Shown: piece after piece, positions 1 to 34,521 of the stretch
Layout of the letters: the number at the start of each line of letters is the position of its first letter
Position numbering within the stretch: position 1 is the stretch's first letter
Virus record (IMG/VR): IMGVR_UViG_3300021373_001412
Location: 1-34,521 of that record
DNA length: 34,521 nucleotides
From: a virus
Strand: one strand, 5' to 3'
Position numbers and translations under genes: made by a program
Notes under the pieces: model-generated
Seen by the model: only the letters and a program-made list of their open reading frames with translations
Told to the model about the DNA's origin: nothing
Database searches by the model: none

Positions 1-403
1 TAGCCCAGCGTGAATCTAGCATCTGCTTAGCCGCCTCTTTGAAGTCTCTGGCATCCACAGCCGCCTTCATCATCTTGAATTTAGAGAGCCGAGGTCTGCC
101 GAGTTGAAAGCACATATTGGCTATGATGTGCTGTGCCTCTTCTTGTAGCTCGTAGAAGTCTGGGTATAGTATTTCACAGTCTTTTAGAACTACAGATATA
201 TCAGCCTCAAACGCCTCTCTCACCCTTGTCTCAGACACTTTAATGCCAACAAAGCTATCTAAGCATAATGATTTATATTCGGGGTCTGACTGCACAATGA
301 GATGACCTATGCCGAATGTTGGATGTCCCTCAGAGCATAAGTATATCTCATCTACCCTGCCCTCATCAGCCGTGATTTCAGCTTGTAATTTATCCAAGTT
401 CAT
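1..403 (-). CDS. T4-type endolysin (GH24 lysozyme), N-terminal part, cut by the window start
   Basis: Translating the minus strand from the ATG at 403 gives MNLDKLQAEITADEGRVDEI and continues to ...LDSRWA at base 1. The N-terminus has the phage lysozyme signature: E14 in DEGR, then GHPTFGIGHL at 26-35, matching T4 lysozyme E11 and T26 with identical spacing (E-x8-C-x5-T). The residue aligned with catalytic Asp20 of T4 is Cys23. The enzyme would cleave cell-wall peptidoglycan at the end of infection. No signal peptide is seen, so export would need a holin. The ATG overlaps the end of the TSCPD-like gene by 14 bases. The missing C-terminus is found at the right end of the window (34470-34521). 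Family assignment is strong; activity with Cys23 is inferred. Confidence 0.93.
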   Translation of the reverse strand, partial: MNLDKLQAEITADEGRVDEIYLCSEGHPTFGIGHLIVQSDPEYKSLCLDSFVGIKVSETRVREAFEADISVVLKDCEILYPDFYELQEEAQHIIANMCFQLGRPRLSKFKMMKAAVDARDFKEAAKQMLDSRWA

Positions 404-5316: not shown

Positions 5317-5663
5317 TGGATTATAACAGCGATTTTGCATATGACTTAGCTATTGGGCAGGGCGAAGAGGTCTGGCTAGGTGATTTACTGCGCGGTGCTA
5401 AGATTGAGGTAAAGCGAGACTTCAAGAGCAGTAAGACAGGTAATATTTTCGTTGAGTATGAGTGCAGGGGAAAGCCTAGCGGTATAGCTACTACTGAGGC
5501 TGATTACTGGGCTTTTATTTTGAACGGTGAGAGGGTTGTAATATTGCCGACAGAGTTCTTAAAGGATTTGTGTAGGCATTATTTTGAGGATGGTAAAATT
5601 ACCAAGGGCGGTGATAAGGACATGAGTGTGGGCGTTTTACTGCCAACATCGAGGATATTGTGA
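5316..5663 (+). CDS. Small PD-(D/E)XK-like nuclease
   Basis: The start at 5316 shares TAATG with the preceding stop; the 5292 alternative is less likely. The 115-residue product reads DLAIGQGEEVWLGDLLRGAK, then IEVKRD and FVEYECRGKPSGIATTEADY. E17, E31-V-K33 and the G-KPSGI-TT-AD-W block fit a restriction-endonuclease-like fold in which ExK is catalytic and the last block forms a core helix. It sits between a resolvase-like protein and an adenine methyltransferase. Specificity cannot be read; structural rather than structure-specific endonuclease function is equally open. Confidence 0.65.
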   Translation: MDYNSDFAYDLAIGQGEEVWLGDLLRGAKIEVKRDFKSSKTGNIFVEYECRGKPSGIATTEADYWAFILNGERVVILPTEFLKDLCRHYFEDGKITKGGDKDMSVGVLLPTSRIL

Positions 5664-6169
5664 GAGAGAAGGACGATTTTTACAGCACTCCAGAGCCTAT
5701 GACAGAGGCATTGCTACAGCGTGAGTTCAAACAACCTTCGATAGTACATGAGCCAGCTTGCGGCACTGGTAGGCTCAGTAAGGTGCTGGGTAGCCATAAT
5801 CATAGGGTTATTTCTGAGGATTTGGTAGATAGGGGTTTCGGCAAAGTAAATCAGGATTTTCTGATGCGGTGGGAGCGTCCGTGCGATTATCTCATAACAA
5901 ATCCACCGTTTAAGCTAGCAGAGGATTTTATTTCAAAGGCTATAGAGCTTGGATATACTAGACACGCTTGGTTACTCAGGCTTGCTTTTCTGGAAGGTCA
6001 GGGAAGGTATGAGAGGCTGTTTAGTAAGCATCCGTTTGATGTGTGCTACGTTTTTAGCAAGCGTCAGACGATGTGGATAGGTGAGGGCAAGCCAACCAGT
6101 AGCGGTACTACTGCTTACGCTTGGTTTGTGTGGGGAATTGAATCTAGGAGAAGGATTGAGTGGATATGA
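5660..6169 (+). CDS. N6-adenine DNA methyltransferase (orphan)
   Basis: The 169-residue product starts with GTG, overlapping the previous stop as GTGA. EPACGTGRL (31-39) is the SAM-binding motif I and DYLITNPPF (76-84) carries the NPPF catalytic motif IV of amino-methyltransferases. FYSTPEPMTEALL at the N-terminus is typical of compact phage Dam-like enzymes. The enzyme is short and has no obvious separate target-recognition domain. No companion restriction enzyme of matching type is identifiable, although small nuclease genes lie immediately upstream. Its likely job is protecting phage DNA or regulating it. The target sequence cannot be predicted. Confidence 0.85.
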   Translation: MREKDDFYSTPEPMTEALLQREFKQPSIVHEPACGTGRLSKVLGSHNHRVISEDLVDRGFGKVNQDFLMRWERPCDYLITNPPFKLAEDFISKAIELGYTRHAWLLRLAFLEGQGRYERLFSKHPFDVCYVFSKRQTMWIGEGKPTSSGTTAYAWFVWGIESRRRIEWI

Positions 6170-8027: not shown

Positions 8028-8468
8028 ATGAAGTTTACACCAGCACTCGTAGATGAGTTTCTTAGACGTATAGCAATCGATGGCAGAAGTGCCAGAAGCG
8101 TTGGCAGGGATGATGATATGCCAAGCTATGAGGCTTTCTACAATCTTATGAACAAGGATGAGGTAGTCAGGAATAAGTATTTCTTGGCACAGGAAAGCAG
8201 AGCTACGGCTATCGATGACCATATCGATGGGGTCATTCAAGATATGAAGGATAAGAAAACAGATTGGCAATCTGCTAGGCTGGAGATAGATACGGCTAAG
8301 TGGCGCATGGCTAAGTTCTTTCCGAGGTTGTATGGTGAGCAGACACAGCGCATCGAGGTGGAACATAAAGCTAGCTTTATAGATGAGTTGAAGAAGGTAC
8401 AGCAAGCGGTGGAAGAGCGAAAGCGTCTGGAAGCTAGGACTATCGAGGGTTCTGTGAATGAAGTATAG
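8028..8468 (+). CDS. terS: Terminase small subunit (Sf6/TerS-like)
   Basis: The 146-residue product matches TerS proteins of the Sf6-type: a putative DNA-binding HTH at the N-terminus (FLRRIAIDGRSARSVGRDDD followed by MPSYEAFYNLMNKDEVVRNK), a central helix (IDDHIDGVIQDMKDKKTDWQ) and RLEIDTAKWRMAKFFPRLYG, the common '..id..KW...k..P..YG' ending of the core, then a coiled-coil tail. It recognises the packaging site and regulates TerL. AAGGG precedes the ATG. One small gene and a 143-base gap lie between it and TerL. Confidence 0.87.
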   Translation: MKFTPALVDEFLRRIAIDGRSARSVGRDDDMPSYEAFYNLMNKDEVVRNKYFLAQESRATAIDDHIDGVIQDMKDKKTDWQSARLEIDTAKWRMAKFFPRLYGEQTQRIEVEHKASFIDELKKVQQAVEERKRLEARTIEGSVNEV

Positions 8469-8801: not shown

Positions 8802-10211
8802 ATGACACCCCAGCCAAAAAAATCCCAAAATACAGATTTGCTTATAGCCCTTCACGATGACCCTGTTCTGTTTGTGGAGCAGATTATCGGTGCGAAGCCG
8901 TATGATTGGCAGAAGGAAGCTCTCAGGGCTATTGCATCTAATGACCGCGTTAGCATTGCTTCTGGGCATGGGGTTGGCAAAACGGCTTTTCTTTCATGGT
9001 TGGCGTTATGGTGGCTGTGTACCCATTATCCGTGTAAGGCGGCTATTACTGCGAACACGGCTCACCAGTTATCGGACGTTTTATGGACTGAGATTGACAA
9101 GTGGGCTAGGGGCTTACCAGAGGGGTTCAAGGAGCTTCTGGAGTTCAAGAGCGACAAGATTAGCTTGAAGGGTGCTACGGACAGTTTTGCGGTGGCTAGG
9201 ACAAGCAGGAGAGAGAACCCAGAGGCTTTGCAGGGCTTCCACAGCGAGAATATGCTGTTTATTTGCGAAGAGGCTAGCGGTATTCCTGATATTGTTTTCC
9301 AAGTTGGAGAGGGTGCGATGTCTACGGAAGGAGCTAAGACTGTGATGTGTGGAAACCCCACTAGGTCTGAGGGGTTTTTCTATGAGAGCCATCATAGCCA
9401 GAGGCATAGGTGGTTTACTATGACGGTGAGTTGTTTGGACAGTCCGAGTGTATCTGAGCAGTTTCTGGAGAACATGGCTGAGAAGTATGGGATTGAGAGC
9501 AATGTTTATCGGGTGAGGGTGTTGGGGCAGTTCCCCACGCAGTCTGATGATGTGTTATTGCCTTTGTACCTCATAGAAGAGGCTGTGAAGAGGGATATTG
9601 AGGCTTCACCTACCACGCCTACTGTTTGGGGTGTTGATGTAGCTCGTTTTGGCGGTGATAGGAGCGCGATAGCGAAGAGGCAGGGCAATGTGTTGCTAGA
9701 GCCTATAAAGACGTATCAGGGGCGCGATTTGATGGAAATGGCTGGTATTGTTATGGCTGAGTATGAGGCTTGTCCGTATATGCTTAGACCGACAGCGATA
9801 TATATTGATGCTATTGGCATTGGGGCTGGGCTAGCTGATAGGTTGAGGGAGTTAGATATGCCAGCTATAGCTATTTCTGTGAGTGAATCGCCTAGCTTGA
9901 AGGATAGGTTTAATCGTCTGAGGGATGAGTTATTCTGGAACGCGAGGGAGTGGTTTGAGGGAAGGGATGTTAAAATGCCTGACGATAGCACTTTGATGCA
10001 GGAGCTTAGTGGAATACGGTATAAGTATTTGAGCAGTGGAAAGTTGAAGGTTGAGGGCAAGGACGAGATGAAGAAGAGGGGGCAGAGAAGCCCTGACGTA
10101 GCGGACGCTTTTGTGCTAACTTTTGCTGAGGCTGGTGCGATAGCTGGTGGGTATTCGAGGAGTTATAATTCCAGTAGGAAGTTAAACACAAACAGAGGAT
10201 GGATTGTATGA
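8802..10211 (+). CDS. terL: Terminase large subunit
   Basis: The 469-residue protein has every landmark of TerL. The ATPase half shows YDWQKEAL (Q motif), Walker A SGHGVGKT at 54-61, Walker B MLFICEE with E156/E157, and the coupling motif CGNPT. The nuclease half shows D279 in VWGVDVARFGGD, D336 in IYIDAIGIG, and D432/D435 in SPDVADAF. It drives DNA into the prohead and cuts it. Length is typical. The stop overlaps the next start as ATGA. Confidence 0.97.
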   Translation: MTPQPKKSQNTDLLIALHDDPVLFVEQIIGAKPYDWQKEALRAIASNDRVSIASGHGVGKTAFLSWLALWWLCTHYPCKAAITANTAHQLSDVLWTEIDKWARGLPEGFKELLEFKSDKISLKGATDSFAVARTSRRENPEALQGFHSENMLFICEEASGIPDIVFQVGEGAMSTEGAKTVMCGNPTRSEGFFYESHHSQRHRWFTMTVSCLDSPSVSEQFLENMAEKYGIESNVYRVRVLGQFPTQSDDVLLPLYLIEEAVKRDIEASPTTPTVWGVDVARFGGDRSAIAKRQGNVLLEPIKTYQGRDLMEMAGIVMAEYEACPYMLRPTAIYIDAIGIGAGLADRLRELDMPAIAISVSESPSLKDRFNRLRDELFWNAREWFEGRDVKMPDDSTLMQELSGIRYKYLSSGKLKVEGKDEMKKRGQRSPDVADAFVLTFAEAGAIAGGYSRSYNSSRKLNTNRGWIV

Positions 10212-11020: not shown

Positions 11021-12428
11021 AGGATTGCTACAAATGCGTTCAACGCCCTACTTTGCTGAGCTATCCCCAGAGGGTCAAGCTCAGAGAAGGCAGGATGTAT
11101 ATTCTGGTTTACTCAGTAGCCCTAAATATGGCGCGATGATGTTACCAGCATCAGGCGTTACTGAAATGATGGGATTAATGGCTGACCCAGAGGGCGAGGG
11201 GTACTTGCCTTCAACAATGGATTTGCTGAGAGAGGGCAGATTTGGTGATGTGGGTTATCAGCTATTAGGCGGTTTAGGCGATGCTTTATATGCTGGTGCG
11301 GCTGTTGTACCACCATTAGCCATACCAGCGGCAGGAGCTAAGGCGGCTAGGGTTGGTAGGTTAGCAAAACCCAAAAAACCAAAACCGCTACTAAAAGAAG
11401 AAAAAGACCCTTTAGGCTATGGAAATATAGCATTTCCTGATTATGCTTCTAATACACAGTTTGAAACTGTTACAGATTACGACTTAGCCCCTCAAAACTT
11501 TTTATCCATCGAAGATTTGCAAGGCTCTTTGTTGTTTCCTTTAATGGGTGACCAAAGTGCGACAGCAAAAAAGTTGTTAAGTATTGATGATGTAAATTTT
11601 GATACGCCTATAGAATTAGGTGGCGGTTACAATTTTATGAGAAGTAAAGCGGCTCAATCTAAGGATAGTGCTGTTTGGGCATCTGGGCAAGGTGTTATAT
11701 CAGATGTAAAAAACAGGGTTCAGCAAGCGTCTGAAGAATTAGGTCTGCCAGTAAATATGATTTACACGGCAATGGGCAAGGATTCTGTTGATTTTGCAAC
11801 ATTCCCAGCAGAAGCGTTAGCGGCTCAAATCCCATATTCAAAAATTCCAATTAAAAATAGATTAGAATTTGATAAAATTATGAAAGAGGGTGGTGTTGTT
11901 AGGGGCTTTGACAAAAAGAAGCCTTACACTGGTGACCCTGATTGGGTAGGGCTTGATAGCCCCAATTTACAAGAATATCTAGGAAGGCAATCGACACCTT
12001 CAAAAGTCAGAAAAGCATTTGTTCGACTTATGGACAGCCAAAAAGCTCAAAGGGCTGGTTTCCCTCACGTTGGCAAAACTCGTTATGCTGTAACGGATTC
12101 TGAACTTAGGAATGCTTTGGCAGGAGAAACTGGCAGAAGCATTGCCAGAATGGATTTAGAAAACCCGATTGTAGAAAACCCTTTATACCCTCACTCAACT
12201 TACGACACTCAACTGAGGGGTCAATATGTCGGTGGTTTATTAGAGCCACAACCAAAAGAAATTGTTTTTAGAGATTTTTATAAATCATTAGAGGGTGCTA
12301 AAACTACATCAGGAGAATTGCAAACACCAAGCATGAAAGATTATAAGTTTAGGTTAGACCTTCCCATGCAATATGTAGACCAAGAGCTTGTAGACACAAT
12401 TATGTCACGCTCTCTTTTATCGGAGTAA
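11013..12428 (+). CDS. Unknown protein with polyvalent-like C-terminal domains
   Basis: I start at ATG 11013 (AGAAG upstream), because the longer in-frame form from 10941 only reads through the preceding gene in another frame; this gives 471 residues. The N-terminus (MAEGLLQMRSTPYFAELSPE..., a Gly/Ala-rich hydrophobic stretch about 85-115) looks like a capsid-region or internal protein. The C-terminal two-thirds (PIELGGGYNFMRS..., SEELGLPVNMIYTAMGKDSV, RQSTPSKVRKAFVRLMDSQK, then STYDTQLRGQYVGG and FRDFYKSLEG) resembles segments found in large phage polyvalent proteins. No catalytic motif is certain. It lies between TerL and portal, a position used for internal or co-injected proteins. Function unknown. 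Confidence 0.75.
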   Translation: MAEGLLQMRSTPYFAELSPEGQAQRRQDVYSGLLSSPKYGAMMLPASGVTEMMGLMADPEGEGYLPSTMDLLREGRFGDVGYQLLGGLGDALYAGAAVVPPLAIPAAGAKAARVGRLAKPKKPKPLLKEEKDPLGYGNIAFPDYASNTQFETVTDYDLAPQNFLSIEDLQGSLLFPLMGDQSATAKKLLSIDDVNFDTPIELGGGYNFMRSKAAQSKDSAVWASGQGVISDVKNRVQQASEELGLPVNMIYTAMGKDSVDFATFPAEALAAQIPYSKIPIKNRLEFDKIMKEGGVVRGFDKKKPYTGDPDWVGLDSPNLQEYLGRQSTPSKVRKAFVRLMDSQKAQRAGFPHVGKTRYAVTDSELRNALAGETGRSIARMDLENPIVENPLYPHSTYDTQLRGQYVGGLLEPQPKEIVFRDFYKSLEGAKTTSGELQTPSMKDYKFRLDLPMQYVDQELVDTIMSRSLLSE

Positions 12429-12818: not shown

Positions 12819-13001
12819 ATGGTAACAGTAATGATGCGTCCGAGAGTGCCGAGGGTTTTAGAGCCAGTGGCAGTCGAAGAGCCAGTAAAGAAGTTTAGTA
12901 ACTGTGGCAGATGCGTGACGCGGAAAATGTGCCAAGATGAGTGCAAGTGCATCCACGGTGCAAAGGCAAAAAGGAAAAAGTCAAATGGCAGAAATGGATG
13001 A
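12819..13001 (+). CDS. Second Cys-rich mini-protein
   Basis: A 60-residue protein with CGRCVTRKMCQDECKCIHG: five closely spaced cysteines and a His, another putative zinc knuckle, then a basic tail KAKRKKSNGRNG. It resembles the protein at 12432 in design (Cys cluster plus Lys tail) though with the order of parts changed. It overlaps the start of portal by 17 bases. Function unknown. Confidence 0.7.
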   Translation: MVTVMMRPRVPRVLEPVAVEEPVKKFSNCGRCVTRKMCQDECKCIHGAKAKRKKSNGRNG

Positions 13002-15018
13002 ATACAAAATAAAAAGCATTGTATCCTCTGAGATTACAGATGCGCTGAACCATTTCGATAGCCAGTATTCTGAAGACAGGCTACAAGCTCAGGATTATTA
13101 CATGGGCGAGGAGCTTGGCAATGAAGTCGAGGGTCGCTCATCCGTTGTATCTACCGAGTTTGCGGATACAGTGGAATCCATTATGCCGTCACTTATGCGA
13201 GTGTTTACAGCAAATGATAAGTATGTTCGGTTCAATGCCAGAACAGAAGAAGATGTTGAGAAGGCTGACCAGATATCCGATTATGTGAACTACATTATCA
13301 ATCACGATAATGAGGGCTACCGTATTCTGCATGATTGGTTTAAAGATGCGCTCATGTTTAGACTTGGTGTAGTCAAGTTCTACTATGAGGAAGAGGAAAA
13401 GGTAAATCAGGAAGAGTATTACGGCTTAACAGAGCCTGAGCTAATCCTATTACTGCAAAACCCAGATGTTGAGATTGTCTCTCAGGAAGAAATAGTCACA
13501 GAAACATATATGGATGAAGCTGGCGAACTTATGCCACTTAATAGCACCTATGACCTTGTTGTTAGGATTACTGAGCGCGAGGGCAAGATTAAGATAGCCA
13601 ACATACCGCCAGAGGAGTTTCTGGTAAATCGCAGGGCTACTAGCTTGGAAGATGCGTATTTCGTATGTCACAGAACATCAATGACCGTATCCGATTTGGT
13701 GGCTATGGGCTATGACCGAGAAGAGGTAGAGGCACACGCTGGCGAATCTGATTTAGATGTTGACGAGGAGAGAACCAATCGCTTCGGAGACATTGAGGCT
13801 ACAACAGGCATTGATGCGGCTGACCCGACACTGCGTGAGGTTATGTACTATGAGTGCATAATGAACATTGATGTGGACGGTGACGGCATTGCAGAGCGCA
13901 GACGTATTTGCGCTATTGGTGCAGATGGAAATCATATCTTACATAATGAGCCATTTGACCATGTGCCGTTCGCTGTTGTTAGCCCGATACTTATGCAACA
14001 CCGATTAATCGGGCGGTCTATCTACGATATGACCAAGGACTTGCAAGTTATTAAATCCACTCTTTTACGCCAATACTTAGATAGCGTTTACACTAGCACC
14101 CTGCCTCGCATGGAAGTTGTCGAGGGCATGGCTAATATCGATGACGTACTAGATGGGACTGCTGGCGGAATCATAAGGGTTCGTCAGTCTGGTGCTGTTC
14201 GTCCGATTACTGGTACACCTGTTGGTGGTGAGGTTAGACCGCTAATGGATTATGTGGATGAGATTAAGGAGCAGAGAACTGGCATGAGCAAAGCCTCGAT
14301 GGGCTTAGATGCTAATGCACTTCAATCCACCACCGCTAGCGCGATTTCAGCTACTGTGAGAGGCGCACAAGTCAAGTTGGAGAGTTATGCTCGTAATATG
14401 GCAGAAACAGGCGTGAAGAGCTTATTTAAGGGCTTACTGCACCTAGTCACCAAATATGATAACAAGCCTCGCATTGTCAGGCTCAGAAATAGCTTTGTAC
14501 CGATTGACCCTAGAGAGTGGACATCTGAGTTTGATGTTGTTGTTCAAGTTGGATTGGGGACTGCTGACGATGAGCAGAAGATTGCTTTCTTGACGCAGAT
14601 TGCGGCAAAGCAGGAGCAGATACTTATGCAGATGGGGGCTAATAATCCTTTGGTTAGCATGGGGCAATACGTCAACACCTTGAGAAGTATTGCTGAAGTC
14701 GGTGGGTTCAAGGATGCGGATATGTTCTTTAACAATCCTCAGCAAATGGCAATGGCAGAGGCACAGGCGGCTCAACAACCACCACAGCCTGACCCAGCCC
14801 AGATGCAAGCTCAAGCTGAGATGCAGTTAAAGCAACAGCAAGCAGAGGCAGAGTTGGCACTGAAGCGTGAGAAGATGTTAGCTGATATAGAGCTAGCCCG
14901 TGAGAAGATGCAGATGGAAATGCAACTTCGCCAGCAAGAGTTACAGATGGAATCAGAGCTAAGGGTTGCAAAGGCGGTCACTGATTCACAAATAAGCACT
15001 AACTTACCGAGGGTTTGA
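12985..15018 (+). CDS. Portal protein (P22-type)
   Basis: The true start is ATG 12985 (AAGGA upstream) rather than 12937; the product is 677 residues. YSEDRLQAQDYYMGEELGNE, then EGRSSVVSTEFADTVESIMP and DWFKDALMFRLGVVKFYYEE are classic P22/podovirus portal features, followed by VMYYECIMNIDVDGDGIAER (clip/stem region) and EIKEQRTGMSKASMGLDANA (crown-proximal). The last about 90 residues form a Gln/Ala/Glu-rich coiled coil, like the P22 barrel. It forms the dodecameric ring at the capsid vertex through which DNA passes. Confidence 0.95.
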   Translation: MAEMDEYKIKSIVSSEITDALNHFDSQYSEDRLQAQDYYMGEELGNEVEGRSSVVSTEFADTVESIMPSLMRVFTANDKYVRFNARTEEDVEKADQISDYVNYIINHDNEGYRILHDWFKDALMFRLGVVKFYYEEEEKVNQEEYYGLTEPELILLLQNPDVEIVSQEEIVTETYMDEAGELMPLNSTYDLVVRITEREGKIKIANIPPEEFLVNRRATSLEDAYFVCHRTSMTVSDLVAMGYDREEVEAHAGESDLDVDEERTNRFGDIEATTGIDAADPTLREVMYYECIMNIDVDGDGIAERRRICAIGADGNHILHNEPFDHVPFAVVSPILMQHRLIGRSIYDMTKDLQVIKSTLLRQYLDSVYTSTLPRMEVVEGMANIDDVLDGTAGGIIRVRQSGAVRPITGTPVGGEVRPLMDYVDEIKEQRTGMSKASMGLDANALQSTTASAISATVRGAQVKLESYARNMAETGVKSLFKGLLHLVTKYDNKPRIVRLRNSFVPIDPREWTSEFDVVVQVGLGTADDEQKIAFLTQIAAKQEQILMQMGANNPLVSMGQYVNTLRSIAEVGGFKDADMFFNNPQQMAMAEAQAAQQPPQPDPAQMQAQAEMQLKQQQAEAELALKREKMLADIELAREKMQMEMQLRQQELQMESELRVAKAVTDSQISTNLPRV

Positions 15019-17081: not shown

Positions 17082-18029
17082 ATGGCTACCCATACTACAA
17101 CAACTTCTGTTGGCGAACGCGAACAGCTAGCGGATGTTATCTATCGTATTGACCCGACAGAAACACCCCTTTTCTCTAACCTAAAAAAAGAAACTTCAAA
17201 CGGTATTTTTACCGAGTGGCAAGTTCAAGAATTAGCGACTGCGGCAACTAACTACGCCACAGAGGGTGCTGATTCTAGCTTTGGAACACCTACAGCAACT
17301 ACAAGACTTGGTAACTATCACGGCATCTCTGAGAAGTCTGTAGCAGTTTCAAAGACCCTTGACGCAGTAGAAAAAGCTGGTCGTGACCGTGAGGTTCAGT
17401 ACCAGAAGGTTCTAAAGGGTTTAGAGCTTCGCAGAGACATCGAGAAGATGATTGGTGACACAGATGTTGCTCGTTCAGCTTCTGAGCCTCGTAAATCAGC
17501 ATCACTTACTTGCTGGATTACAAACGGTTCTGTTGGCGCAACTGCTGGTGCATTTTCATCAGGTGACGGCACAGACACAGTAACTGGTGGTGATGACCGT
17601 GCATTAACATTGGCACTAATTGACGATGCAATGCAGGATGCTTGGACAGATGGTGGAAACCCTTCACTTATGGTGATGAGTGCTACTAATCGTGCAAACT
17701 TCTCAGACCTAACAGTGTCAAACAACTTGGTGCAAAATCAGGTAAATATGACTGCGGCTAAGGAAACAACATATGTTGGTTCTACCTCAGTTTATCTAAC
17801 TGATTTCGGTACTTTGGAAGCCACTCCATCAAGATTTATGGGCAATGACCGTACATTCTTGATTGACCCTGACTTCGCTTCTCTTTCAACGCTAAACGGA
17901 CGTAACTTCGCAGAGAACGAAATCGCTCCAACTGGTGATGCAGAGAAGTTCCAAATTGTTTGTGAGTGGGCGTTAAAAGTAACTGCTCCAAAAGCACACG
18001 CAATGGTACTAGACCTATCAGGTTCTTAA
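17082..18029 (+). CDS. Major capsid protein (SU10/DUF5309-like HK97 fold)
   Basis: A consensus AGGAGG lies eight bases before the ATG, the best ribosome-binding site in the window, fitting the most abundant virion protein. The 315-residue product begins with EREQLADVIYRIDPTETPLF and continues SEKSVAVSKTLDAVEKAGRD, GLELRRDIEKMIGDTDVARS, then DDAMQDAWTDGGNPSLMVMS and TFLIDPDFASLSTLNGRNFA. This is the pattern of SU10-type coat proteins (DUF5309). Codon choice here is visibly more uniform than in accessory genes, as expected for high expression. It forms the icosahedral shell. Confidence 0.93.
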   Translation: MATHTTTTSVGEREQLADVIYRIDPTETPLFSNLKKETSNGIFTEWQVQELATAATNYATEGADSSFGTPTATTRLGNYHGISEKSVAVSKTLDAVEKAGRDREVQYQKVLKGLELRRDIEKMIGDTDVARSASEPRKSASLTCWITNGSVGATAGAFSSGDGTDTVTGGDDRALTLALIDDAMQDAWTDGGNPSLMVMSATNRANFSDLTVSNNLVQNQVNMTAAKETTYVGSTSVYLTDFGTLEATPSRFMGNDRTFLIDPDFASLSTLNGRNFAENEIAPTGDAEKFQIVCEWALKVTAPKAHAMVLDLSGS

Positions 18030-19434: not shown

Positions 19435-21786
19435 ATGGGTTATCGCGTACCTTTAGATAATCTGTCGGGTACGCTCGACAGTCTAACTACCCCATTTGAT
19501 ACGTTAGACACAAACGCTATTGAGTGGAGCGCGACTACATTAGATTCGATGAATCAGTGGGGTGCGCTCGACACATGGAACTTTGGCACTCTTGATAGCA
19601 TTACGTCTTTTGACGTTTTGCTTGCCAAAACCCCACCACCAGAAACAGGTCTAACTTTAGACTTTTCATACGCTGAAGGTCAACTTGCAAATAGTGGCGG
19701 TTTTTCTGGTACAAATCGTTCCAATAATATTGTTATGTCTGGCGAACTTGTTTTGCCTTCTTCTTTTTCTCAAACCGAATGTATTTGGGAGTTTGGTGGG
19801 ACTGGAATAGGTTCTTGGCTAGGCGTAAGTAAGATAAACAATATTTATCATTTGCGTTTTCGTGCTGGAGAAGGCGCGGCAAGTGTAAATTTGCTATCTG
19901 ATGATACAGATGTAGCTATTGCAAATGTACCTATTTCAAATATACCTGAGTTTGATGATGGCATACATACACTTACTTGGGAAATTAAACCTAGTGCGGC
20001 TGGTAGAATTAGGTTATGGATTGATAATAGGCTTGTAATATACCAAGAAACTTCTGGGGGTGCGTCTTTAGAAAATGGTAGTTTTGCTGGCGGTGATGCA
20101 GGGGGTTGGGGCGCTGGTTACAGTAGTATAGCTGGTGGAACTTCATCTACTTCTAACACTCATTATCAATCTGCGACTGCTTTTAGTGGCGATATAAAAT
20201 CTAATTTAAGGGTTTATAATAATGAATTAGTAAGCCGCGTAATTAGATTATCTTTAGATATAGCAAGCACAGCCTCATTAGTTAAAAAAACTTCTGCTTC
20301 CGTGTCCACTGCAATTACGCAGTCTACATTATCTACAAGAATTAGAACTGCCTTATCTAATGTTTCTACGGCTGTAACGGTCACTAACACGCCTACCGTT
20401 ATTAGGCTTATGTCTGCTAGTGTTGTAGGTGCGGCATCTGTTAGTGCTTCTGCTGGAAAGACAAGGCTGTTCTCAGCCAGCGTTAATATTGCGTCAACAG
20501 TATCATCATCATTAACAAAAACGACATTTACTGATTCTTCTGTGGCAACAGCGATAACTGTATCTGCTGTTCCGTTTAGCGTATTAGCGTTTGATGCGAC
20601 AGCAAACACAGCAATAACACAATCAACACAAGCCACACGCATTAGAACAGTCAGCGATTCAGTAAACATATCGGCTACAGTTACGTCAACGCCTGAGAAG
20701 ATTACTTTTGCTACAGCTTCAGAAAACATATCCGCAACAGTTACAGCAACTGCGATTGTATTTAGAAATGCTGTTTTTGCAGATGCCTCTGTAAATATAT
20801 CGGCTACTGTTGCTGGTGCTTATAATGTTGTTAAAGAGGTTGCTTCATCTCAATCTATAGCAATCACAGAAAACGCAGTATCTAAACTTATTGCTTCTGC
20901 TGTTTCTTCTGTAGATTTAGCTTCCACCGTGTTGTCATCTGCAACACGGATTAGAACAACATCTTCACAAGTAGACATAGCGGTAACTGAGCAAGCTGTT
21001 CAAACTATAACAAGAACTGTTTTAGCTTCAGAAGATATAGCAATTACAGAATCTGGCGAATCTATAAGAATAAGAACTATGTCAGCATCTGTGTTGGGTG
21101 CTACAAATGTTAGCGCAAGTTCTAAGGCTACTTTAGCTGGGGTTACATCTGTTGATATATCTATTGAGACAACAGGTGTAGCTAACGTCACTGCTTCTGC
21201 TGTAGCTAGCGAAAATATAGCCATTACTAATCAAGCTATACCGACTATATTACGCACTGTTTCATCTCAGCCAGATATATCTGTAAATGTTACTGGCGAA
21301 CAGCAAAGAATTAAATCGGTATCTGCTTCTGTTGATTTATCCGTTACAGAATCAACCGAAGTAAAAAGAATAGTTTTCGATTCTTCTGCGGTAGATATAA
21401 GTATTACAGAGAGTGCTGTAGCTACTAAACTCAGGACAGCATCTGCATCAGAAAGCATAGCTATTACTGAAAGTGGTGAAGCAACAAGAGTTAGAACAGA
21501 TAGTGCCAGCGTAGATATAGCGGCAACAGTTACATCAACAGCAAAAACGGTATCACTGGTTTCAGCATCTGAATCTATTGCGATAGAAACAGAGGCAATA
21601 GCAGGGATAGAATTTTCTTTCTTTGGAACTTCTGCTATATCTATAGAAGGAACTATGATAGCCAAAATACTTGGCGAAGATTGGATTCTGGTTGATTCGG
21701 ATGATGAGACATGGACAGATATAGCAATAGGTTCTGAAATATGGACGCAAGTTCCAACAGGCAGTGAGGTTTGGTTAAGACAATGA
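19435..21786 (+). CDS. Long repeat tail fibre with LamG-like head
   Basis: The 783-residue protein has three parts. Residues 7-60 hold repeated LD(S/T) units (DNLSGTLDSLTTPFDTLDTN and later TLDSM, ALDTW, TLDSI). Residues about 65-270 form a LamG/concanavalin-like sandwich (HTLTWEIKPSAAGRIRLWID, FSGDIKSNLRVYNNEL). Residues about 272-745 are roughly 23 diverged 20-residue repeats. A short end follows (EDWILVDSDDETWTDIAIGS, EIWTQVP, EVWLRQ), with three Trp-containing units. It is presumably a surface fibre or stalk in contact with the host. No catalytic site seen. Stop overlaps the nozzle start as ATGA. Confidence 0.82.
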   Translation: MGYRVPLDNLSGTLDSLTTPFDTLDTNAIEWSATTLDSMNQWGALDTWNFGTLDSITSFDVLLAKTPPPETGLTLDFSYAEGQLANSGGFSGTNRSNNIVMSGELVLPSSFSQTECIWEFGGTGIGSWLGVSKINNIYHLRFRAGEGAASVNLLSDDTDVAIANVPISNIPEFDDGIHTLTWEIKPSAAGRIRLWIDNRLVIYQETSGGASLENGSFAGGDAGGWGAGYSSIAGGTSSTSNTHYQSATAFSGDIKSNLRVYNNELVSRVIRLSLDIASTASLVKKTSASVSTAITQSTLSTRIRTALSNVSTAVTVTNTPTVIRLMSASVVGAASVSASAGKTRLFSASVNIASTVSSSLTKTTFTDSSVATAITVSAVPFSVLAFDATANTAITQSTQATRIRTVSDSVNISATVTSTPEKITFATASENISATVTATAIVFRNAVFADASVNISATVAGAYNVVKEVASSQSIAITENAVSKLIASAVSSVDLASTVLSSATRIRTTSSQVDIAVTEQAVQTITRTVLASEDIAITESGESIRIRTMSASVLGATNVSASSKATLAGVTSVDISIETTGVANVTASAVASENIAITNQAIPTILRTVSSQPDISVNVTGEQQRIKSVSASVDLSVTESTEVKRIVFDSSAVDISITESAVATKLRTASASESIAITESGEATRVRTDSASVDIAATVTSTAKTVSLVSASESIAIETEAIAGIEFSFFGTSAISIEGTMIAKILGEDWILVDSDDETWTDIAIGSEIWTQVPTGSEVWLRQ
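20250..21660 (+). repeat. About 23 tandem 20-codon repeats within the fibre gene
   Basis: The translated repeat is about 20 residues with consensus SASVDIAITESGEATRIRT-S; examples are SEDIAITESGESIRIRTMS, SENIAITNQAIPTILRTVS and ASESIAITESGEATRVRTDS. At DNA level copies are well diverged, so recent slippage is not evident. The alternating hydrophobic pattern suggests a beta-solenoid or stacked beta-sandwich shaft. Confidence 0.8.
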
Positions 21787-33792: not shown

Positions 33793-34167
33793 TCATTTTG
33801 TATCTGTTTTCTTACCCTTGTCGTAGCTTCTCATACCAGCTAGACCCAGCATCCCAAACAATAGCGGCATCATAACCGACATATCAGCTTGCGGTATTGT
33901 GATTCCAAAGCCAGCACATATCGGGCTAACCATGTAGTTGATGCCCAGAGATAAACCGCATATCCAGCCTATAAGGGGTCGCCAGCTAGCTTGAAACCAA
34001 TTTCCCTTAGCATCAGCCTTCAGCACCTCTATCTGCTGTAGTGCAAGCTCCTGAGCGTGATTATCAGCCATTGTAGCTAGCTCATGTGCTAACTGGTTCT
34101 TTTGGTCTTTATCCTCGATAAACTTATCCAGCAACTTAGTTGCAGGAGCAATTAGAGCTTGTATCAT
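33793..34167 (-). CDS. Holin of the 3TM superfamily
   Basis: The 124-residue product begins MIQALIAPATKLLDKFIEDK, DQKNQLAHELATMADNHAQE, then LKADAKGNWFQASWRPLIGW, ICGLSLGINYMVSPICAGF and MMPLLFGMLGLAGMRSYDK. This matches the GTA/phage '3TM holin' family (helical N-terminus, WRPL-GW start of the first membrane helix, LLGMLGLAGMRS-ek end). AAGGAG precedes the ATG. It would open the inner membrane so that lysozyme reaches the cell wall. Last gene of the minus-strand unit. Confidence 0.87.
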   Translation of the reverse strand: MIQALIAPATKLLDKFIEDKDQKNQLAHELATMADNHAQELALQQIEVLKADAKGNWFQASWRPLIGWICGLSLGINYMVSPICAGFGITIPQADMSVMMPLLFGMLGLAGMRSYDKGKKTDTK

Positions 34168-34264
34168 TTCTTCTCCTTATTACATCTTCACGCCAACGAT
34201 ATAGATTAATGCCTGTGTTAAGCCCTATAAGCCCCAACAGGAGTGCTTCCCACCATTCTGGCAT
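34136..34264 (-). CDS. 42-residue membrane peptide in the lysis cassette
   Basis: ATG at 34264 (inside the preceding TAA, as TAATG) gives MPEWWEALLLGLIGLNTGIN, LYRWREDVIRRRNDTSSNCS, CN-stop. One membrane helix (about 7-22) is followed by a basic segment; its 3' end overlaps the 3TM holin gene by 32 bases in another frame. Size and place suit an antiholin, a pinholin or a spanin-like peptide, but there is no lipobox. The double overlap supports translation. Confidence 0.6.
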   Translation of the reverse strand: MPEWWEALLLGLIGLNTGINLYRWREDVIRRRNDTSSNCSCN

Positions 34265-34473
34265 TAGTGCTTCTCCGAGTTCAACCAGACCGCCAGTGAG
34301 CCTGTCATAGCCCCTGTGACCACACTTATTAGACTAGCTTGCTGTGTTGATAAATCTGGTTGTGATAATGCCCATTCGATACAACGAATGTAAACACCTG
34401 TCATGCACAGCATCATAAAACGCGGTAATATTTTAAGCTCTAATAACTTACGAGCTACTTCTTCTGCACTCAT
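34264..34473 (-). CDS. Small two-helix membrane protein, holin candidate
   Basis: The 69-residue protein has a charged start (MSAEEVARKLLELKILPR), a membrane helix (about 18-37: FMMLCMTGVYIRCIEWAL), a polar turn (SQPDLSTQQ) and a second helix (about 46-63: LISVVTGAMTGSLAVWL). This is the class II holin shape. Its ATG overlaps the lysozyme stop (ATGA), so it is part of the lysis operon. With a 3TM holin-like gene downstream, one of the two may be an antiholin. Confidence 0.72.
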   Translation of the reverse strand: MSAEEVARKLLELKILPRFMMLCMTGVYIRCIEWALSQPDLSTQQASLISVVTGAMTGSLAVWLNSEKH

Positions 34474-34521
34474 AATTTTTCCATCCTCTTTGCTAATCTA
34501 TTGGCTCTATTAGGGGTTTGT
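34470..34521 (-). CDS. T4-type endolysin, C-terminal part, cut by the window end
   Basis: The minus strand read inward from base 34521 (after one base) gives QTPNRANRLAKRMEKL-stop. QTPNRA is the conserved block that follows SRW-x-x in T4-type lysozymes, and SRWA is exactly where the fragment at bases 1-403 stops. With one extra base the join would read SRWA-x-QTPNRA, with x encoded by A?A (AGA, Arg, would be typical). The stop TGA overlaps the ATG of the next minus-strand gene as ATGA, so the two lysis genes are translationally coupled. This is a fragment of one gene, not a separate gene. Confidence 0.88.
   Translation of the reverse strand, partial: QTPNRANRLAKRMEKL

Follow-up and report, generated by a model that had tools for sequence, protein, structure and literature searches.

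The stretch of DNA analysed here, referred to as the window, comprises 34,521 nucleotides and covers the IMG/VR virus record IMGVR_UViG_3300021373_001412 from position 1 to its end. A predicted lysozyme gene is found in two pieces, one at each end of the window. These pieces, the neighbouring lysis genes and the packaging and head genes are arranged as follows:

1..1, minus strand: single base left over from the split codon (end reading)
2..403, minus strand: first 134 codons of a T4-type lysozyme (Phage_lysozyme PF00959), a frame that runs off the left end of the window
8028..8468, plus strand: terminase small subunit (Sf6_terminase), at a great distance from the cut
8802..10211, plus strand: terminase large subunit (annotation and comparison)
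12937..15018, plus strand: portal protein, SU10_portal (profile match)
17082..18029, plus strand: major capsid protein, SU10_MCP (profile match)
33793..34167, minus strand: holin (GTA_holin_3TM, PF11351; profile match), third in the lysis block
34136..34264, minus strand: 42-residue ORF, placed after the 69-residue gene and before the holin; the four closest relatives have one like it
34264..34473, minus strand: 69-residue gene, phrog_10198, second in the lysis block; also present in phage C72C1 and replaced in the four closest relatives
34470..34520, minus strand: last 16 codons and stop of the lysozyme (end reading and C-terminal profile)
34521..34521, minus strand: another base of the split codon, of which one base is absent from the record (end reading and relatives)

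On the minus strand of the left end an open frame runs from 403 to 2, comprises 134 codons and closes with ...MLDSRWA plus one leftover base. At the right end one leftover base precedes a minus strand frame starting at 34520, which reads QTPNRANRLAKRMEKL-stop (34520-34470). The split codon is represented by 1 + 1 bases and one base is missing. The lysozyme stop overlaps the start codon of the 69-residue gene in the sequence ATGA (34473-34470). The left piece alone scores 27.5 bits with the Pfam family Phage_lysozyme (PF00959, GH24 type), which is above the cut-off of 22.3, and in a sequence search it also matches solved T4-type lysozyme structures. Scored with a profile of the lysozyme C-terminus built from 20 relatives, the right-end stretch reached +48.9 bits, and the runner-up among 68,960 six-frame window positions reached +2.6; a chance match at the right end is not compatible with this gap. 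Since the left piece matches lysozymes and the right-end stretch tops the C-terminus profile, both pieces belong to one gene. The comparison of sequences thus confirmed that the window ends carry the two halves of a single predicted lysozyme gene. A preliminary description had proposed exactly this, with ...DSRWA at the left end and a lysozyme C-terminus continuing on the same strand at the right end, and both frames and profile bear it out. The coordinates given there, 1-403, hold for the left half, and the right half is located at 34470-34521.

T4 lysozyme carries the C-terminal motif SRW..QTPNRA. A C-terminus of this type is common to the window lysozyme, T4 lysozyme (endolysin e) and the lysozyme domain of T4 gp5, all of the Phage_lysozyme family. 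The active-site spacing is likewise present (E14-8-C23-5-T29) and fits E-8aa-(D/C)-5aa-T. In contrast to T4 lysozyme, the window lysozyme is shorter (about 150 residues) and has C in place of D in this motif. It is predicted to be a T4-type endolysin of the ordinary cell-wall-cutting kind, most likely whole in the phage.

How many bases are missing at the junction can be derived from the relatives. In 20/20 related lysozymes SRW or SKW is separated from Q[TV]P.RA by two residues, and the joined window ends provide one full residue plus two bases of the next codon in this interval, so that one base is missing. In the four closest relatives (L002-L005) the lysozyme shows 96-99% protein identity over the left piece. 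Aligned as DNA, the gene runs uncut through the position of the cut in each of the four and exceeds the joined window ends by exactly one base. Lysozyme copies were intact in all relatives seen. The two-residue spacing that the preliminary description had counted from T4, and with it the shortage of one base, is thus well founded. It had attributed the loss either to the cut or to the window coordinates. The stored source record has 34,521 bases as well, without an additional base or a terminal overlap, which rules out a shift of coordinates unless the record was altered before storage, and places the loss in the stored record itself. The full length of 34,522 bases suggested as probable would be correct only for a junction gap of a single base, as opposed to 4, 7 etc. 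Given the relatives, a single missing base would be by far the simplest account.

Beyond the lysozyme, the window holin is identical to the annotated holin of C72C1 at 108/124 residues (87%). The position of the 69-residue gene between lysozyme and holin suggests a role in lysis. In the four closest relatives its slot is occupied by a 106-residue gene of membrane type with hydrophobic segments and an EF-hand-like stretch (DLDGDGIISDEEL). Relatives of the 69-residue protein are found in nearly 600 viral stretches, and the upstream genes differ among those read out. In the subset of these contigs checked for an upstream lysozyme, other genes lay upstream and no further intact lysozyme was seen.

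C72C1 (OQ984150.1) is the closest annotated phage found; a literature search returned no paper on it. Its genome of 34,944 bp is recorded as circular and complete. The large terminase is 76% and the portal 77% identical to that of the window, and the gene order is alike. On the minus strand of C72C1 the 69-residue gene and then the holin come directly after an intact lysozyme, the very order that results from joining the window ends. C72C1 differs in that its lysozyme is intact and lies away from the start of the record, its sequence has clearly diverged and its numbering begins at another point.

A full-length relative, G004 (IMGVR_UViG_3300021371_000059, locus L005), has 33,704 bases, spans the whole circle of the window and continues unbroken through the cut. 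DNA identity is about 89-97% over most of the map, and the large terminase is about 100% identical. G004 differs from the window in its own cut, at about 11.4 kb of the window, and in the different gene that replaces the 69-residue gene. Its ends meet at about 11392-11401 of the window, inside another gene, and the join is one base longer than the window sequence there. The ends are therefore off by -1 base in the window and by +1 base in G004, and neither record has an end repeat. Three further relatives (G008, G009, G011) are cut at other places, and none of the relatives compared spans their joins to give the offset. Two contigs (G005, G006) were set aside, having the lysozyme as the sole part in common with the window. 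A further record, G007 (IMGVR_UViG_3300030331_001708, L116/L117; 37,070 bases), is cut in the tail region; its ends have 6 bases in common (TTCAAT), and an open frame crosses the join, which none of the relatives compared spans either. It may be a whole circle too.

The gene content of the window includes small and large terminase, portal, capsid and adaptor of SU10 type, ejection and tail genes, replication genes and the lysis block. The SU10-type head set was found with E-values of 3e-206 for the portal (PF23899), 1e-74 for the major capsid protein (PF17236) and 5e-36 for the adaptor (PF24175). SU10 itself has a podovirus tail and a prolate head. Known here from its genes, the window would represent a C72C1-like phage with SU10-type head genes, and this phage group is already known from C72C1 and many marine contigs. 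No nucleotide match to the first 8 kb of the window was found in the phage collection.

We conclude, with a probability of about 95%, that the window represents a phage map, circular or circularly permuted, taken once around and linearised inside the lysozyme with the loss of one base. Its ends run into each other in four uncut relatives, with the join one base short, and G004, a full-length relative with abutting ends, is cut elsewhere. Together with the order lysozyme, 69-residue gene and holin in circular C72C1, this supports the full genome cut inside the lysozyme that had been proposed beforehand. A larger contig continuing differently past either end had been named as evidence to the contrary; the contigs of the relatives instead span the cut, and the gene order matches again beyond the lysis cassette. 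The window is a near-complete marine phage with SU10-type head genes and ordinary biology, and the split of its lysozyme is an assembly artefact and not biology.

The ends themselves speak in part against the circular map. In the output of the usual short-read assemblers the two ends overlap by one k-mer (PMC8116208, PMC10914622), and the lack of such an overlap counts against a circular map. Neither direct nor inverted terminal repeats of note were detected at the ends of the record, and the CheckV rule, which asks for a direct terminal repeat of 20 bases or more, finds none in the window. Other records in the same collection retain end repeats of 123, 123, 101, 100 and 81 bases, from which it follows that the collection does not trim such repeats. 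Linearised circular phage contigs as treated by CheckV (PMC8116208) and COBRA (PMC10914622) are, like the window, full-length maps with matching ends. Such contigs normally stand out through a terminal repeat one k-mer long, in contrast to the window with no repeat and one base missing. In three records, G015, G018 and G019 (L210/L211, L216/L217, L218/L219), the end repeats measure 100, 81 and 101 bases and each contains one mismatch, so that a search for exact repeats could overlook them.

The position of the cut in the lysozyme coincides with a mosaic boundary between the shared lysozyme body and a swapped gene cassette. Identity to the four relatives is 94-98% (47-49/50) in the 50 bases just left of the cut, drops to 34-36/50 (about 70%) in the first 50 bases right of it and then to 16-17/50, which is near random. 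Short-read assemblies break at points of the graph with several paths (PMC10914622), and a record ending at a mosaic boundary makes it likely that strain variation stopped the assembly. In the phage, the lysozyme would be a whole gene at the head of a lysis block consisting of lysozyme, 69-residue gene, small ORF and holin. Most likely, reads from related strains would branch at the boundary of lysozyme and cassette, the assembly would stop there, and the circular map would be written as a line from an arbitrary point inside the lysozyme. The missing base may have been dropped as ambiguous.

The same boundary would also fit a chimera, in which the left lysozyme body and the right cassette derive from two strains and the exact join exists in no single phage. 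Among the public viral contigs, from which near-identical records may have been withheld, none has both exact flanks of the window at a distance of 30 bases or less; this also counts against the circular map. Against such an origin, the lysozyme reads on in frame into the right flank apart from one base, the gene order beyond the cassette is again that of the relatives, and C72C1 has the same order including the 69-residue gene. We consider a chimera unlikely; if true, the lysozyme would still be the place where a single circular map was cut open. A real one-base deletion in an otherwise exact circle would require no lost base at all, since the literal join reads ...SRWANKPLIEPID, a frame-shifted and slightly shorter lysozyme of 143 residues with a changed C-terminus. 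The mutation would then have to coincide exactly with the cut of the record, and the frame after the cut still encodes the conserved lysozyme end, with a stop overlapping the ATG of the next gene. With 20/20 relatives intact, we regard this deletion as very improbable.

A linear record without end repeats might also represent the physical termini of a linear virion DNA, with cohesive ends or fixed repeats that fall within the lysozyme by chance. Contigs of relatives cross the cut, though, and full-length G004 has its ends in a different gene, 11.4 kb from the cut. A single missing base is moreover unlike a usual cohesive end. The terminase genes lie 8-10 kb from the cut, and the small subunit is Sf6-like. 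Sf6 packages by headful, leaving no fixed ends. By analogy, the Sf6-type small subunit suggests headful packaging without fixed ends for the phage of the window, and physical termini at the cut are hardly conceivable.

For the circular map cut inside the lysozyme, the consequences are limited to annotation and record keeping. In the linear record the lysozyme would be annotated as truncated. The preliminary description had expected two broken genes, which is too strong: with just 16 codons the right piece would usually escape gene calling, and a single truncated lysozyme is to be expected. This full-length genome would not pass as complete in a test that relies on end repeats (at least 20 bp, PMC8116208). 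As the case of G004 demonstrates, a record with abutting ends is not a single accident, and comparing ends with uncut relatives can reveal such records.

Two further regions of the window were noted. Between adaptor and a structural gene, a 783-residue frame (19435-21786, plus strand) contains many ASVDIAITESAVATRIRT-type repeats in its second half. A gene with a PAPS-reductase domain (PF01507; 6417-7244, plus strand) adjoins a small DNA-methyltransferase-like frame (5660-6169). Both PAPS-reductase and DNA-methyltransferase genes are annotated in C72C1, in the same order as in the window.
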